The translations under genes were made by a program, and so were the position numbers. Below, in pieces: positions 1,352-6,668 of a stretch of DNA of 39,667 bases (position 1 is the stretch's first letter; every line of letters begins with the position of its first letter). The notes below the pieces were generated by a model. That model worked only from the letters and a program-made list of their open reading frames with translations, was not told where the DNA came from and did not search any database. The stretch is from an uncultured Oscillospiraceae bacterium (GTDB lineage: Bacteria; Bacillota; Clostridia; Oscillospirales; Oscillospiraceae): NCBI GenBank assembly GCA_944386985.1, contig CALXDD010000028.1:1-39667 (forward strand). The letters run 5' to 3'.

Positions 1352-1527
1352 GGGGGCCAGGGGGCCGCAGCCCCCGGTTCTTTCGCCTAAGCGAAAGAAA
1401 AAATTTCAATCATTTTTGTCAGGACATGCGCCTGACAAAAATACATTGACCCGCGCGCCTTGGGCGCGCACACCAGTCCGCAGACTGGTGGTGGGGGATC
1501 CTCAAGGGGGAGCCTGCTCCCCCTTGA
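1352..1527 (-). repeat. Structured intercistronic repeat, copy 1 (argJ-argB gap)
   Basis: A ~176-bp element starting 1 nt after the argJ stop. Read on the minus (transcribed) strand it holds six consecutive hairpins: 1502-1527 (11-bp arms TCAAGGGGGAG/CTCCCCCTTGA), 1471-1490 (CACCAGTC arms), 1453-1469 (GCGCGCC arms), 1412-1442 (12-bp arms ATTTTTGTCAGG/CCTGACAAAAAT), 1380-1397 (CTTTCGC arms) and 1357-1377 (GGGGGC arms). A second copy lies at 5261-5438 with the same hairpin order and loops but several changed stem pairs. No protein-coding potential was recognised. Confidence 0.9.
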
Positions 1528-1528
1528 C

Positions 1529-2755
1529 TTACGTCCGGTAATCCCCGTTGATCTTGATATAGTCATAGGTGATGTCACAGCCCCAGCAGGTGCAGACGCC
1601 GTCACCCTCGGCCATCTGGATATTGATCTCCACCTCGCTCTCGGTGAGGATCTTCTTGGCAAGGTCTTCGTCGAAGGGAAGCCCCCTCCCCTGCTTGCAC
1701 ACGGCGATGTCGCCTGCGGCGGATGCAAAATGAACGTCCACCTTCTCCGGGTCAAACTGCTCCCCGGAATAGCCCATGGCGCACAGCACCCGGCCCCAGT
1801 TGGCGTCGCAGCCGAAGATGGCCGCCTTGGTGAGAGTGGAGGAGATCACGCTCTTGGCAATCACCTCCGCCTGACTCTCGTCCTTAGCGCCGGACACAGT
1901 GCAGGTGATGAGGTGCTTGGCGCCCTCGCCGTCCTTTGCCATAGCTCGGGCCAGCTCCACGCAGAGGGCCTTCAGGGCCTCCAGGAAGGCGTAGTAGTCG
2001 TCGCTCTTCTCTGTGATCTCGGCATTACCCGCAAGACCGTTAGCCAGCACCAGGCAGGTGTCGTTGGTGGAGGTATCGCCGTCCACGCTGATGCGGTTGA
2101 AGCTGACCTTGGCGGTCTCCAGCAGAGCCTCCCGGATCATGGCGGGGGAGATGGCGCAGTCGGTGGTGAGGAAGCAGAGCATGGTGCCCATGTTGGGGTG
2201 GATCATGCCGCTGCCCTTGGCGATACCGCCCATGCGGACGGTCTTGCCGCCCACGGTGGTCTCCACGGCCACCTCCTTCTTCACAGTGTCGGTGGTCATG
2301 ATGGCGTGGGCCGCTGCGTCGCTGGCAGCCTCGCTGGCCTCCAGGAGACTGTAAAGTTTAGGCATGCCCTCCTCAATGACGTTCACCTTCAGGGTCTGGC
2401 CGATAACGCCGGTGGAAGCCACCAGCACATCCTCCTGACTGCAGCCAATGGCCTTGGCAGCGGCGGCGCACATTTTCTCGGCATTCTCCTCGCCCTGGGG
2501 GGCGCAGGCGTTGGCGTTGCCGCTGTTGCACACCACCGCCCGGGCCTTTCCGTCGGCCAGGTGGGCCTTGGTGACATGGATGGGAGCGGCCTTCACCACG
2601 TTGGTGGTGAACACGGCGGCGGCGGAGCAGTCCACATCGGAGACGATGAGGGCCACGTCCTTCTTATTGACATTGTGGGTCTTCACGCCCACATGGAGCC
2701 CGGCAGCCCGGAACCCCTTGGCGGCGCACACACCGCCGGCGATCTTCTTCAACAT
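1529..2755 (-). CDS. argJ: Bifunctional ornithine acetyltransferase / N-acetylglutamate synthase
   Basis: ArgJ transfers the acetyl group of N-acetylornithine to glutamate, giving ornithine and recycling N-acetylglutamate; bifunctional forms also use acetyl-CoA. 408 aa, normal for the family. The self-cleavage region is visible as KGSGMIHPNMGTMLCFLTTD near residue 180-200; the Thr of GTML is the expected autoprocessing nucleophile. The residue before it is Gly rather than the more common Ala, which should not prevent cleavage but is worth noting. The ATG at 2755 follows AAAGGAG with 5 nt spacing and gives the start MLKKIAGGV; the longer in-frame start at 2773 has no such site. It sits 63 nt after argC. 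No argA-like gene is visible, consistent with a cyclic pathway. Confidence 0.95.
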   Translation of the reverse strand: MLKKIAGGVCAAKGFRAAGLHVGVKTHNVNKKDVALIVSDVDCSAAAVFTTNVVKAAPIHVTKAHLADGKARAVVCNSGNANACAPQGEENAEKMCAAAAKAIGCSQEDVLVASTGVIGQTLKVNVIEEGMPKLYSLLEASEAASDAAAHAIMTTDTVKKEVAVETTVGGKTVRMGGIAKGSGMIHPNMGTMLCFLTTDCAISPAMIREALLETAKVSFNRISVDGDTSTNDTCLVLANGLAGNAEITEKSDDYYAFLEALKALCVELARAMAKDGEGAKHLITCTVSGAKDESQAEVIAKSVISSTLTKAAIFGCDANWGRVLCAMGYSGEQFDPEKVDVHFASAAGDIAVCKQGRGLPFDEDLAKKILTESEVEINIQMAEGDGVCTCWGCDITYDYIKINGDYRT

Positions 2756-2818
2756 ATTGACTCCTTTATCCAAGAGGAGGACTCCGGTCTCCTCTCCCCT
2801 ATCTTTTCGCTCCTCACT

Positions 2819-3751
2819 TCAGAGAAGTCCCGCAGTCTCCTCAAAGCCCAGCATCAGATTCATGTTCTGCACCGCCGCGCCGGAAGCCCCTTTGCCCAGG
2901 TTGTCAAAGAGGGACGTCACCGTCAGCTGGCTGTCGTTGCCCGCCACGGTGAGGACCAGGTCGTTGTCCCCGGCCTTGGCGCCGCCGTAGAGCTTGCCGT
3001 CGGCTCCCTCAGGGGCCACACGGACCAGTTTCTGCCCGGCGTAATAGTCGGAAAGGGCCTTCCACACATCGTGGAGGGAGCTGACGCCCCGCAGCTGGGA
3101 CAGATGGAGGGGCACGGTGGTGGCCATGCCCTTATAGTAGTCGTCCACAATGGGACTGAATACCGGGGGACAGCTGAGACCGCAGCGAATCTGCATCTCC
3201 GGCAGGTGCTTGTGGCCCTGGGTGATGGCGTAGATGGCGGGCGTGCTCAGCAGCTCCTCCCGCCCCTCCGCCTCATACTGGGCGATCATCTTCTTCCCGC
3301 CGCCGGAATAGCCGGTGAGGGAAAAGCAGCTCAGCGGGGTGTCGGCAGGCAGAATGCCCATGGTCACCAGGGGATAGACGATGCTGATAAATCCGGTGGC
3401 ATGGCAGCCGGGATTGGACACCCGCTTGCTCTCCACAATCATCTTCCGGTGCAGCTGAGACAGCTCCGGAAAGCCGTAGGCCCAGCCGGGCTTCACCCGG
3501 TGGGCGGTGGAGGCGTCGATAATGCGGGTGTTGGGGTTCTCCACCAAGGTCACCGCCTCAATGGCAGCGGCGTCGGGGAGGCAGAGAAACACCAAGTCCG
3601 CCTGGTTCATGAGCTTCCGCCGCTCCTCAATGTCCTTCCGCTTCTCCTCGTCAATGAGCAGCAGCTCAATGTCCTGCCGCGGCGCCAGCCGGTCATAGAT
3701 CTGGAGACCGGTGGTCCCCTCTTTTCCGTCGATGTAGACAACAGGCTTCAT
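2819..3751 (-). CDS. argC: N-acetyl-gamma-glutamyl-phosphate reductase (short, type 2 form)
   Basis: NADPH-dependent reductase making N-acetylglutamate 5-semialdehyde from the ArgB product. At 310 aa it matches the shorter type 2 ArgC subgroup, as does the N-terminus VYIDGKEGTTGLQIYDRL, where the nucleotide-binding loop is GKEGTTG. The catalytic cysteine is in VSNPGCHATGF near residue 115. C-terminal substrate-binding features include GHKHLPEMQ near 200. Its ATG overlaps the argH stop in an ATGA arrangement, so translation is probably coupled to argH. The substrate order argH-argC-argJ-argB-argD supports the call. Confidence 0.95.
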   Translation of the reverse strand: MKPVVYIDGKEGTTGLQIYDRLAPRQDIELLLIDEEKRKDIEERRKLMNQADLVFLCLPDAAAIEAVTLVENPNTRIIDASTAHRVKPGWAYGFPELSQLHRKMIVESKRVSNPGCHATGFISIVYPLVTMGILPADTPLSCFSLTGYSGGGKKMIAQYEAEGREELLSTPAIYAITQGHKHLPEMQIRCGLSCPPVFSPIVDDYYKGMATTVPLHLSQLRGVSSLHDVWKALSDYYAGQKLVRVAPEGADGKLYGGAKAGDNDLVLTVAGNDSQLTVTSLFDNLGKGASGAAVQNMNLMLGFEETAGLL

Positions 3752-5130
3752 GTTTGGTGCTCCTTCACAAAGGCCTCCAGCTCGTCGATCTGGCGGCTGG
3801 TCTCGCTGACGGCGGGGCCGCCGTAGCTCTTGCGCTGGCCCATGCAGGTCTCCAGGCGCAGCGCCTCATAGACATCCTCCTCAAAGAGGGGGGAAATCTT
3901 CTGCAGTTCCTCCATGCTCAGCTCCTCCAGAAGCTTCTGGTGGGTGGTGCAGTAGTAGACCAGACTGCCCACAGCGGTGTAGGCGTCCCGGAAGGGCATT
4001 CCCTTCTTGGTCAGGTAGTCGGCGCAGTCGGTGGCGTTGATGAACCCACCACCGGCGGCACGGCGCATATTGTCCGGCAGCACCCGCATGGTCCGCAGCA
4101 TCCCGGCGAACACGGGCAGGCACATCTTCACAGTGTCCACCGCGTCAAACACCGGCTCCTTGTCCTCCTGCATATCCTTGTTGTAGGCAAGGGGCAGGCC
4201 CTTCATGGTGGTGAGGAGGCTCATCAGGTCGCCGTACACCCGGCCGGTCTTGCCCCGGACCAGCTCCGCCACGTCGGGGTTCTTCTTCTGAGGCATGATG
4301 GAGGAGCCGGTGGAGTAGGCGTCGTCCAGCTCAATGAACTTAAACTCCCAGCTGCACCAGAGGATGACCTCCTCAGAGAAACGGGAGAGGTGCATCATCA
4401 GGGTGGCCAGGGCGCTCATAAGTTCAATGGCGTAATCCCGGTCGCTGACGCCGTCCAGGCTGTTGGTCATGGGCTGGGTAAAGCCCAGAGCCTTGGCAGT
4501 CATAAAGCGGTCAATGGGATAGGTGGTGCCCGCCAGAGCGCCGGAGCCTAAGGGACACTCGTTCATCCGCCGCTCACAGTCCTCCAGTCTCGTCACATCC
4601 CGGCAGAGCATGGCCCCATAAGCCAAAAGATGCTGGGCAAAAGAGATGGGCTGTGCCCGCTGGAGATGGGTATAGCCGGGCATGACGGTGTTCTGGTGCT
4701 GCTTTGCCTGCTCCAAAATGGCCTTCTGGAGATCCAGGATTTCCGTCTTGATGGCGGCGATCTCATGGCGGAGATAGAGCCGCAGGTCCACCGCCACCTG
4801 ATCATTCCGGCTGCGGGCGGTGTGAAGGCGTTTGCCCGCGTCCCCGATCTTGGCGGTGAGGAGGGTCTCCACATTCATGTGGATATCCTCGTTGTCACTG
4901 GTGAGCTCCGCCTTGCCGGACTCAATATCCTGCAGAACCTCCTGTAGCCCAGCGGTGATGGCATCGGCATCGGCCTGAGAAATAATGCCGCACTGGGCCA
5001 GCATGGCGGCATGGGCCAGGGAACCCATAATATCCTCCTTATACATCCGGCCGTCAAACTGGATGGAGGAATTGAAATCATTCACTAAGGTATCGGTCTC
5101 CTTCTGGAACCGTCCCCCCCAAAGTTTCAT
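3748..5130 (-). CDS. argH: Argininosuccinate lyase
   Basis: Splits argininosuccinate into arginine and fumarate; cytosolic homotetramer of the fumarase/aspartase superfamily. 460 aa, typical length. The superfamily signature GSSIMPQKKNPD is present near residue 278-289, including the catalytic serine loop; HTARSRNDQVAVD near 105-117 and the THLQRAQP segment near 155-162 are also visible. I start at the ATG at 5130 (MKLWGGRFQ, the normal ArgH start), preceded by AGGAG with suitable spacing; an upstream in-frame extension to 5199 is not supported. It shares 4 bases with argC. The 318-bp gap upstream to argG contains a structured repeat and a GC-rich hairpin, with no clear promoter. Confidence 0.96.
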   Translation of the reverse strand: MKLWGGRFQKETDTLVNDFNSSIQFDGRMYKEDIMGSLAHAAMLAQCGIISQADADAITAGLQEVLQDIESGKAELTSDNEDIHMNVETLLTAKIGDAGKRLHTARSRNDQVAVDLRLYLRHEIAAIKTEILDLQKAILEQAKQHQNTVMPGYTHLQRAQPISFAQHLLAYGAMLCRDVTRLEDCERRMNECPLGSGALAGTTYPIDRFMTAKALGFTQPMTNSLDGVSDRDYAIELMSALATLMMHLSRFSEEVILWCSWEFKFIELDDAYSTGSSIMPQKKNPDVAELVRGKTGRVYGDLMSLLTTMKGLPLAYNKDMQEDKEPVFDAVDTVKMCLPVFAGMLRTMRVLPDNMRRAAGGGFINATDCADYLTKKGMPFRDAYTAVGSLVYYCTTHQKLLEELSMEELQKISPLFEEDVYEALRLETCMGQRKSYGGPAVSETSRQIDELEAFVKEHQT

Positions 5131-5184
5131 AGCAATTTCTCTCCTGAAGAAGTGATGATCTGCCCAACAGGCAGAAACAGCGGA

Positions 5185-5212
5185 AAGCGGCGGGAGCAAA
5201 CTCCCGCCGCTT
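5185..5212 (-). promoter_or_regulatory. GC-rich hairpin in the argH leader
   Basis: Perfect 12-bp inverted repeat (AAGCGGCGGGAG / CTCCCGCCGCTT, 4-nt loop CAAA) 55 nt before the argH ATG. On the minus strand it is followed by only TTTCC, so it is a weak terminator at best; it could be an attenuator or an mRNA end-stabilising stem. No T-box consensus was seen near it. Confidence 0.6.
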
Positions 5213-5260
5213 ATGCCGGTGATACAGCGGACCGGACCCTGCGGGTCCTATCTAAGCCCC

Positions 5261-5438
5261 GGGGGGCCAGGGGGCCGCAGCCCCCGGTTCTTTCGCCAAA
5301 GCGAAAGAAGAAAATCGAATCATTTTTCCAAGGACATGCGCCTTGGAAAAATCCCTTGACCCCAGCCGCCCTGGGCGGCGTCGCCAGTCCGCAGACTGGC
5401 GGTGGGGGATTCTCAAGGGGGAGCCTGCTCCCCCTTGA
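5261..5438 (-). repeat. Structured intercistronic repeat, copy 2 (argG-argH gap)
   Basis: Second copy of the element at 1352-1527, about 178 bp, starting 9 nt after the argG stop in the same orientation. The hairpin order is the same. The terminal hairpins (5413-5438 and the GGGGGC stem) and all loops are nearly identical, but three inner stems carry paired substitutions: CGCCAGTC/GACTGGCG instead of CACCAGTC/GACTGGTG, GCCGCC/GGCGGC instead of GCGCGCC/GGCGCGC, and ATTTTTCCAAGG/CCTTGGAAAAAT instead of ATTTTTGTCAGG/CCTGACAAAAAT, while the loop between the last pair stays the same. Confidence 0.9.
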
Positions 5439-5447
5439 CGTCGTCTC

Positions 5448-6668
5448 TTAGAGCTTCCCCTCGTCCCGCAGAGCGAGGATGGTGTCGGGCAGGCCCCACA
5501 GGTTGATGAAGCCGGTAGCGTCGGCCTGGTTGTAGTCGCTCTCCTGGAAGGTGACGATGTTCTCAGAGTACAGGGTATCGGGAGAGGTGACGCCGGCGGT
5601 GATGATGTTGCCCTTGTAGAGCTTCAGCTTCACCTGGCCGGTGACGTGCTTCTGGGTCTCCACGGCGAAAGCCTGGAGGGCCTCCCGCAGGGGGGTGAAC
5701 CACTTGCCGTTATAAACCAGATCAGCAAAGTCCACAGACAGCTTCTTCTTCATGTGGGCGGTGTCCTTGTCGATGGTGATCATCTCCAGGACCTCGTGGG
5801 CCCGGTACAGAATGGAGCCGCCCGGAGTCTCGTAGACGCCTCTGTCCTTCATGCCGGTCATCCGGTTCTCCACGATGTCCAGCAGGCCCACGCCGTTCTT
5901 GCCGCCGATCTCGTTGAGCTTTGCGATCATGGTGCTGGCCTTCATCTTCTCGCCGTTGAGAGCCACAGGCCAGCCCTTCTCAAAGTCGATGGTCACATAG
6001 GTGGGCTCGTCGGGCGCCATGGCGGGGGAAACGCCCATCTCCAGGAAGCCCGGCTTGTCATACTGAGGCTCGCTGGCAGGGTCCTCCAGGTCGAGGCCCT
6101 CGTGGCTCAGGTGCCACAGGTTCTTATCCTTGGAATAGCTGGTCTCTCGGCTGATCTTCAAAGGCACATTGTGGGCCTCGGCGTAGTCGATCTCCTCGTT
6201 CCGGCTCTTGATGTCCCACTCTCTCCAGGGAGCGATGATGGTCATCTCGGGAGCGAAGCGCTTGATGGCCAGCTCAAACCGGATCTGGTCGTTGCCCTTG
6301 CCGGTGCAGCCATGGGCAATGGCGTCGGCGCCCTCCTTCTTGGCGATCTCCACCAGGCCCTTGGCAATAATGGGCCGGGCAAAGGCGGTGCCCAGGAGGT
6401 AGTCCTCATACTTGGCCCCCATCATCATGGAGGGGATGATCACGTCATCCACCATCTCATCCACCAGATCCATGACGTACAGCTTGGAGGCGCCGGTCTT
6501 GATGGCCTTCTCCTCCAGGCCCTCCAGCTCATCGTTCTGGCCCACGTTGCCGGCCACGGCGATGATCTCGGGGTTGTTGTAGTTCTCCTTCAGCCAGGGA
6601 ATGATAATGGACGTATCCAGACCGCCGGAATAGGCCAGGACGATCTTCTTCACATCTTTCTTGCTCAT
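5448..6668 (-). CDS. argG: Argininosuccinate synthase
   Basis: ATP-dependent ligase joining citrulline and aspartate to argininosuccinate. 406 aa, the usual length for bacterial ArgG type 1. The ATP pyrophosphatase loop [10 protein letters not shown] lies at residues 11-20; [14 protein letters not shown] near 118-131 is the conserved citrulline/aspartate/ATP block; [19 protein letters not shown] near 173-191 is a further family signature. The ATG at 6668 follows GGAGG with 8 nt spacing. It is the first gene of the arg operon, read from a promoter at 6711-6739. Neither carbamoyltransferase argF nor carAB is in the window. Confidence 0.97.

Follow-up and report, generated by a model that had tools for sequence, protein, structure and literature searches.

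The stretch of DNA analysed here, called the window, comprises positions 1 to 39,667 (39,667 nucleotides, nt) of contig CALXDD010000028.1 (GenBank assembly GCA_944386985.1) from an uncultured Oscillospiraceae bacterium, and carries an arg operon that contains two copies of a hairpin-rich repeat. Profile matches give the order argG, element, argH, argC, argJ, element, argB and then argD, with argG, argH, argC, argJ, argB and part of argD on the minus strand. The two repeats lie in the argJ/argB gap (copy 1) and the argG/argH gap (copy 2). Each is ~177 nt long and holds six hairpins, in the order h1, h3, h4, h5, h6, h7 on the transcript strand counted from the stop codon. An earlier note on this DNA had described two six-hairpin repeats of the same orientation, and its coordinates prove right to 1 nt: direct-repeat blocks join 1352-1452 with 5262-5362 (87%) and 1456-1528 with 5367-5439 (89%). 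The inverted-repeat listing shows five of the six hairpins in each copy, and h7, the sixth, is seen in the folds. Because the arg genes are on the minus strand, h1 begins in the transcript 1 nt past the argJ stop and 9 nt past the argG stop, which agrees with the starts 1-9 nt after a stop codon within the operon that the note had given. Both copies fold better than 200 of 200 dinucleotide shuffles, with z-scores of -7.95 for copy 1 and -5.89 for copy 2. The three stems quoted as differing by paired substitutions are present in the sequence. The note could name no described family, and no Rfam family reaches its gathering threshold on the element. The top sub-threshold match, SprD, scores 34.9 bits where 100 are required (E 8.7e-6, 311 bases) and was taken as a chance fit of hairpins.

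Table 1 Features of the two repeats and of their host genes (window positions).
Feature	Positions	Strand	Basis
Element copy 1, argJ/argB gap	1352..1528	-	direct repeat + fold
Copy 1 h1, 1 nt past argJ stop	1502..1527	-	inverted repeat
Copy 1 h3, stem CACCAGTC/GACTGGTG	1471..1490	-	inverted repeat, covariation
Copy 1 h4, stem GCGCGCC/GGCGCGC	1453..1469	-	inverted repeat, covariation
Copy 1 h5, family core, conserved GGCRCATGTCC	1412..1442	-	inverted repeat, pattern scans, covariation
Copy 1 h6	1378..1399	-	inverted repeat
Copy 1 h7, CCGGGGGCTGCGGCCCCCTGG, approximate bounds	1356..1377	-	fold
Element copy 2, argG/argH gap	5262..5439	-	direct repeat + fold
Copy 2 h1, 9 nt past argG stop	5413..5438	-	inverted repeat
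Copy 2 h3	5382..5401	-	inverted repeat, covariation
Copy 2 h4	5365..5379	-	inverted repeat, covariation
Copy 2 h5	5322..5352	-	inverted repeat, covariation
Copy 2 h6	5288..5309	-	inverted repeat
Copy 2 h7, approximate bounds	5266..5287	-	fold
argG, host gene of copy 2	5448..6668	-	NCBIfam NF001770
argJ, host gene of copy 1	1529..2773	-	NCBIfam TIGR00120

A search for further copies, as the note had proposed, returned 13 element places in the window's own genome, together with 6 short echo matches to element palindromes, and matches in 15 of 99 relatives, namely all 11 genomes of the genus (the window's own counted) and 4 others. A search pattern for the h5 core (TTTTNNNAGGCRCATGTCCYNNNAAAA) found at least 118 stretches in public genomes. 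Every taxon among the 80 matches listed falls within the Oscillospiraceae, the Ruminococcaceae or other Clostridia/Eubacteriales. Within the Oscillospiraceae the pattern occurs in 55 of 400 genomes, which represent 27 of 106 genera, and a reversed control pattern gave 0 matches among the genomes listed. Copy numbers range from 0 to 75 per genome; G030 has 75 and its eight listed congeners 0 to 13 (G and L numbers denote genomes and loci). No element match was found among the phages and plasmids searched; in IMG/VR one pattern gave 0 matches and a broader h5-core pattern two contigs (L166, L167). G246 carries a sister subfamily with another h5 loop, CGACGTACAYGCCG (L338, L346, L348, L354, L356, L358, L366), some copies of which have hairpin duplications of their own. 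In the G030 copies (L174-L203, L234-L273) the GAATTCTGCGGAATTC core is largely constant and the outer stems enclosing it are hypervariable yet well paired; the copies mix modules, and another repeat (GACGGTTCTTT..) often comes next (30 loci read).

The best-preserved relatives, the best of them in G112, are gene-less and mostly have 199-265 nt between flanking repeats. They span CAGCGTGTCGAA to TTTTTTGACAGTCTG, with several internal hairpins and the constant h5 core GGCRCATGTCC, and their terminal inverted repeats are CAGNNTGTCRAA; the left end has the consensus CAGC(G/C)TGTCGAA, drawn from 42 copies, and the right end CAG(A/T)CTGTCAAA, drawn from 34. The sites are terminator-like, with an A-tract, a hairpin and a T-tract behind a gene, and most G112 copies have the same gene-specific hairpin on both flanks. 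A direct repeat score of at least 16 was reached by 23 of the 28 G112 copies versus 0 of 756 off-diagonal pairings. Among the 225 distinct copies with enough flank for the repeat test, 47 showed a hairpin-shaped flanking direct repeat with a score of at least 14, versus 3 of 1,118 shuffled pairings. These 47 comprise 20 G112 loci, 5 from G360, 5 from G138 and the remainder from other records, and a few of them (L056, L155 and L263 among them) are other kinds of repeat. The flanking repeats measure 17-41 bp in 51 of 55 rows, and their boundaries fall within 1 nt of the hairpin start in 32 and of the hairpin end in 36 of the 55. A T-tract (at least 4 T in the 9 nt after the hairpin) accompanies the right hairpin copy in 30 of 45 clean cases and the left in none of the 45, and an A-tract (at least 4 A ahead of the hairpin) accompanies the left copy in 21 and the right in 2. 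The flanking repeats look like target-site duplications whose length is determined by the hairpin. Empty sites are also seen. At acpP/rnc, genes identified in G112, the element is missing from 9 of 9 congeners, each of which shows one hairpin followed by a T-rich tail. Single hairpins likewise follow the orthologues of three other genes, that of L281 (in G246 and G361), that of L291 (in G441) and that of L278 (in G328). The earlier note had allowed that a match to a transposable element end would change the interpretation, and in the relatives both such ends and hairpin target duplications are found. In L370 (near position 4000; G112 C1:65714) a right-end-like motif stands immediately ahead of an element-free gene-end hairpin, possibly as a scar or by chance.

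Placement relative to genes was scored with a codon-model gene caller for 146 distinct copies, of which 28 lie at locus edges, leaving 118. None of the 146 was called within a gene. Behind the stop of a same-strand gene stand 106 of the 118, the next gene being co-directional for 74 and convergent for 32; the rest are antisense in co-directional gaps (11) or lie in a divergent gap (1). Thus, 74 of the 85 copies in co-directional gaps are in sense orientation. As background, the gaps of 100-600 nt, each counted in both reading directions, amount to 223 same-same, 223 opposite-opposite, 146 divergent and 84 convergent gaps.

A candidate for the partner transposase comes from L433 in G164, a complete IS1182-family insertion sequence (IS) of 1,496 bp with the ends CAGTTTGTCAAAAAA. 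Its transposase matches NF033551 with 385 bits (cut-off 270) as well as PF13751 and PF05598, and a 31-bp hairpin, ACAGGTCCGGCATTTCAAATGCCGGACCTGT, flanks it on both sides, with T's at the right. The terminal repeat CAGNNTGTCRAA also terminates IS1182-family copies of G164 and G328; the G328 copy has a left hairpin, its right flank being lost at a contig end. G006, of the window's genus, holds a 586-bp deleted IS1182 copy with such ends, there as CAGTCTGTCGARAAA, and one-sided IS1182 remnants with CAGNNTGTCRAA and adjoining hairpins occur in G253 and G112. Partial IS1182 matches are found in the element-bearing genomes G006, G030, G112, G153, G253, G256 and G380, some cut by contig ends. Other partners were considered and rejected: DDE_Tnp_1 proteins, which do not fit in the ten element-bearing genomes searched; IS1634, since its transposase was matched in just 2 of 30 genomes searched; and Y1 transposases (REP-associated tyrosine transposases, RAYT), as PF01797 is present in 5 of 12 genomes that bear the element and likewise in 5 of 12 that lack the pattern. 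The stray right-end motifs of G112 led to no autonomous element, and the loci scanned held no pair of ends that face each other across 600-3,500 nt and share their flanks.

The repeats in the arg operon are probably degenerate copies of a non-autonomous, gene-less family of miniature inverted-repeat transposable elements (MITEs) of IS1182 type in the Oscillospiraceae, and they look more like settled mobile DNA than purpose-built regulatory RNA. Dispersed similar copies carry no transposase gene, preserved copies share their inverted repeats with an autonomous IS, and target-site duplications are documented by 23 of 28 G112 copies and by the empty sites. An IS1182-family transposase would act in trans on the element, whose two ends would be joined at the feet of a hairpin, each end to a different strand. 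Gap repair would then duplicate the hairpin and re-form hairpin and T-tract at the far end, so that insertion should be mild. The effect on the arg transcript is, by default, taken to be that of a tolerated passenger, and a later regulatory role may exist at some operon gaps. If this reading is correct, the family illustrates a way for mobile DNA to spread into the ends of genes while the terminator is restored downstream of the insertion.

Several observations weigh against this assignment. L433 is the sole complete IS with both flanks seen and the only one to combine a transposase with the same ends and target, and the deleted G006 copy has differing hairpins on its two sides. IS1182 transposases over the cut-off occur in 4 of 37 genomes (G164, G328, G392, G190), which hold only 0 or 1 exact-pattern copies, and none was found in the element-rich genomes searched, which are incomplete assemblies. 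G112 has near-perfect duplications, yet its IS1182 remnant spans only 60 amino acids, and PF01609 (DDE_Tnp_1) matches, present in 3 of 10 element-bearing genomes, never have element ends. A hairpin-shaped repeat is absent from 178 of the 225 copies. At the window copies neither end motifs nor a flanking direct repeat was found, and 0 of 27 window-genus copies reach a repeat score of 14. Moreover, 28 of 28 evaluable copies of the window subtype lie in co-directional gaps, that is, in operon gaps rather than at plain terminators, which a terminator-seeking element does not predict. As the window copies have neither end motifs nor duplication, we infer the descent of the window-genus copies from the MITE family from shared core, part order, orientation and placement.

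In the window's genus the order h1-h2/h4-h5-h6 is kept, some copies also having CTCTGCGAGGC after h6. The copies stand just past the stops of argG, argJ, groES, grpE, pheS and other genes in operon-like gaps; the gene pairs groES/groEL, grpE/dnaK, pheS/pheT and rplI/dnaB were confirmed at one locus each. Judged by eye in the readable species, an element or remnant is present in 7/7 for argJ, 8/8 for groES, 8/9 for pheS, 7/9 for grpE, 7/11 for argG and 3/11 for rplI. The rplI/dnaB gap is element-free in several species, and decayed remnants are visible in the argG gap of G003 and in the argJ gap of G002 and G003. One and the same gap may hold different element subfamilies in different species, as seen for grpE (G003 versus the others) and argG (G002 and G009 versus G000, G004, G006 and G008). 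The gaps may be kept filled either by insertion hot spots or by retention. Tandem units were seen in six cases (L005/L013, L008/L010, L021, L024, L038, L073), the first unit ending just past the h5 sequence GGCRCATGT(T/C)C and abutting h1 of the next; this recurrent breakpoint in h5 is not explained by a terminal-repeat model. A terminator-like hairpin (AAGCGGCGGGAG/CTCCCGCCGCTT) lies ahead of argH at window positions 5185-5212, and the argG/argH gap of G002, G003 and G005 has a similar GC-rich hairpin.

The earlier note had read the paired stem changes as the trace of selection on RNA or cruciform structure. Real, repeated, paired changes there are: among 34 related copies that passed script filters, 95.4% of cells are paired, three helices show strong covariation, and 98 cells are changed on both sides, versus a shuffle mean of 36.5 (n = 500) and no more than 19 in any of six slid controls, although the sequences share descent and the shuffle figure is therefore not a probability. 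What is not supported is that these changes reflect selection on a sense regulatory RNA. The stem variants form discrete alleles, found again and again at different sites within one genome, and this recurrence, with the subfamily swaps at single gaps, means that copy replacement can explain much of the apparent compensation; exchange between copies and subfamilies would account for part of the paired stem variation. The mismatches point the same way. In the distinct hairpins of 45 clean copies, read on the sense strand, there are 22 A.C, 3 G.T and 5 other mismatches inside the elements (15, 3 and 5 without h5), and in the adjoining duplicated terminators the balance is reversed, with 4 A.C and 19 G.T (Fisher p 1.3e-6, uncorrected for shared descent). 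The window-genus stems h1-h4 have 9 A.C and 0 G.T. The bias is absent from the G030 type (15 A.C versus 13 G.T), from stems downstream of h5 (5 versus 10) and from random control pieces (66 A.C, 64 G.T). A sense-strand A.C corresponds to a G.T on the opposite strand, so that in two of the three subfamilies wobble seems to be tolerated on the antisense strand. This pattern argues against the sense RNA having made the covariation and suggests a folded antisense strand, as DNA or RNA. When repeat copies differ by paired substitutions, selection on RNA is not the only possible cause, as the exchange of hairpin alleles between copies leaves an identical pattern, and the strand-specific wobble test, with adjacent terminators as a built-in control, can be reused elsewhere.

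One rival explanation is an intra-operon cis-regulatory RNA, the view of the earlier note, in which the folded sense transcript would tune the distal genes via termination, processing or stability. Sense orientation directly past stops, the confinement of the window-genus copies to co-directional gaps, the filling of the groES, grpE, pheS and argJ gaps in most readable species and the stem covariation would all suit such a role. We nevertheless consider it unlikely, as the wobbles, except in the G030 type, point to the other strand, no U-tract directly follows any stem of the window copies, presence is patchy, as at rplI/dnaB, and the relatives have transposon ends and target duplications. Somewhat less doubtful, and an addition to the MITE reading rather than its competitor, is that MITE-derived copies are kept at certain operon gaps as a useful intercistronic hairpin block, for example by protecting the 3' end of the upstream cistron. 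That different subfamilies occupy the grpE and argG gaps across species and that the stems still pair would fit such retention, although hot spots account for the same pattern and the decayed argG and argJ remnants speak against it. By extension, a hairpin-duplicating transposase system could have seeded Oscillospiraceae terminators, the relics of one lineage being recruited as standard intercistronic elements at groES/groEL, grpE/dnaK, pheS/pheT and argJ/argB, with any subfamily retained and the antisense strand structured; this is proposed tentatively, as a possibility to which we give a minor share of our confidence.

Two further explanations are highly improbable. A repeat mobilised by a Y1 (RAYT) transposase, akin to repetitive extragenic palindromes (REP) and bacterial interspersed mosaic elements (BIME), would agree with a short, palindromic, intergenic mosaic; the equal frequency of PF01797 in genomes with and without the pattern opposes it, and we know of no hairpin target duplications made by REPs. 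An attC-like recombination site, of which the folded bottom strand would be recognised, would share with attC the placement past stops, the orientation and the bottom-strand wobble bias, and could accommodate tandem units with their common breakpoint in h5, whereas hairpin duplications together with terminal repeats are a signature of transposition.

Among known systems, group IIC introns also insert in sense orientation at terminator hairpins, and the element resembles them in this; they differ as retroelements, with a ribozyme core and a reverse transcriptase, and are not known to make a target duplication. REP/BIME sequences are palindromic intergenic mosaics that occur within operons too. 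Unlike these, the Oscillospiraceae element is longer, has terminal repeats and target duplication, and shows no link to RAYT. None of the Oscillospiraceae terms tried was found in two REP surveys (PMC12306157, PMC3733652).

IS1272 and TnSha1 of staphylococci, which belong to the IS1182 family, are described in PMC4923244 and PMC5678879 as targeting hairpins without sequence specificity, often transcription terminators, with the target hairpin deleted or replaced and no target duplication. The Oscillospiraceae family appears to share with them an IS1182-family transposase and a hairpin or terminator target, and differs in that the hairpin is duplicated, an outcome drawn as pathway b in PMC5678879, and in that the mover is a gene-less element of ~200-265 nt. 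Some IS1182 members target palindromes, according to Siguier et al. as cited, without detailed data, in a passage of PMC5678879. ISCaa15 (IS1182) differs by its 4-bp direct repeats, as tabulated in an excerpt of PMC3196728. A likeness to IS1634/IS1549 lies in long direct repeats of variable length, given as 8-514 bp in PMC2266710 and at the time still lacking a model; the accessible text of that paper makes no link to hairpins. Among the matches listed in the open-access literature (PubMed Central), there is no description of the element or of a terminator-duplicating MITE, and those listed for the h5 core sequence concern unrelated subjects only. The present family would offer a natural, well-replicated case of stem-loop-duplicating transposition, which for IS1272 was modelled but reported absent. 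What is new relative to this literature is that, as read from the preserved copies, the hairpin is duplicated rather than deleted, by a gene-less element of putative IS1182 type.

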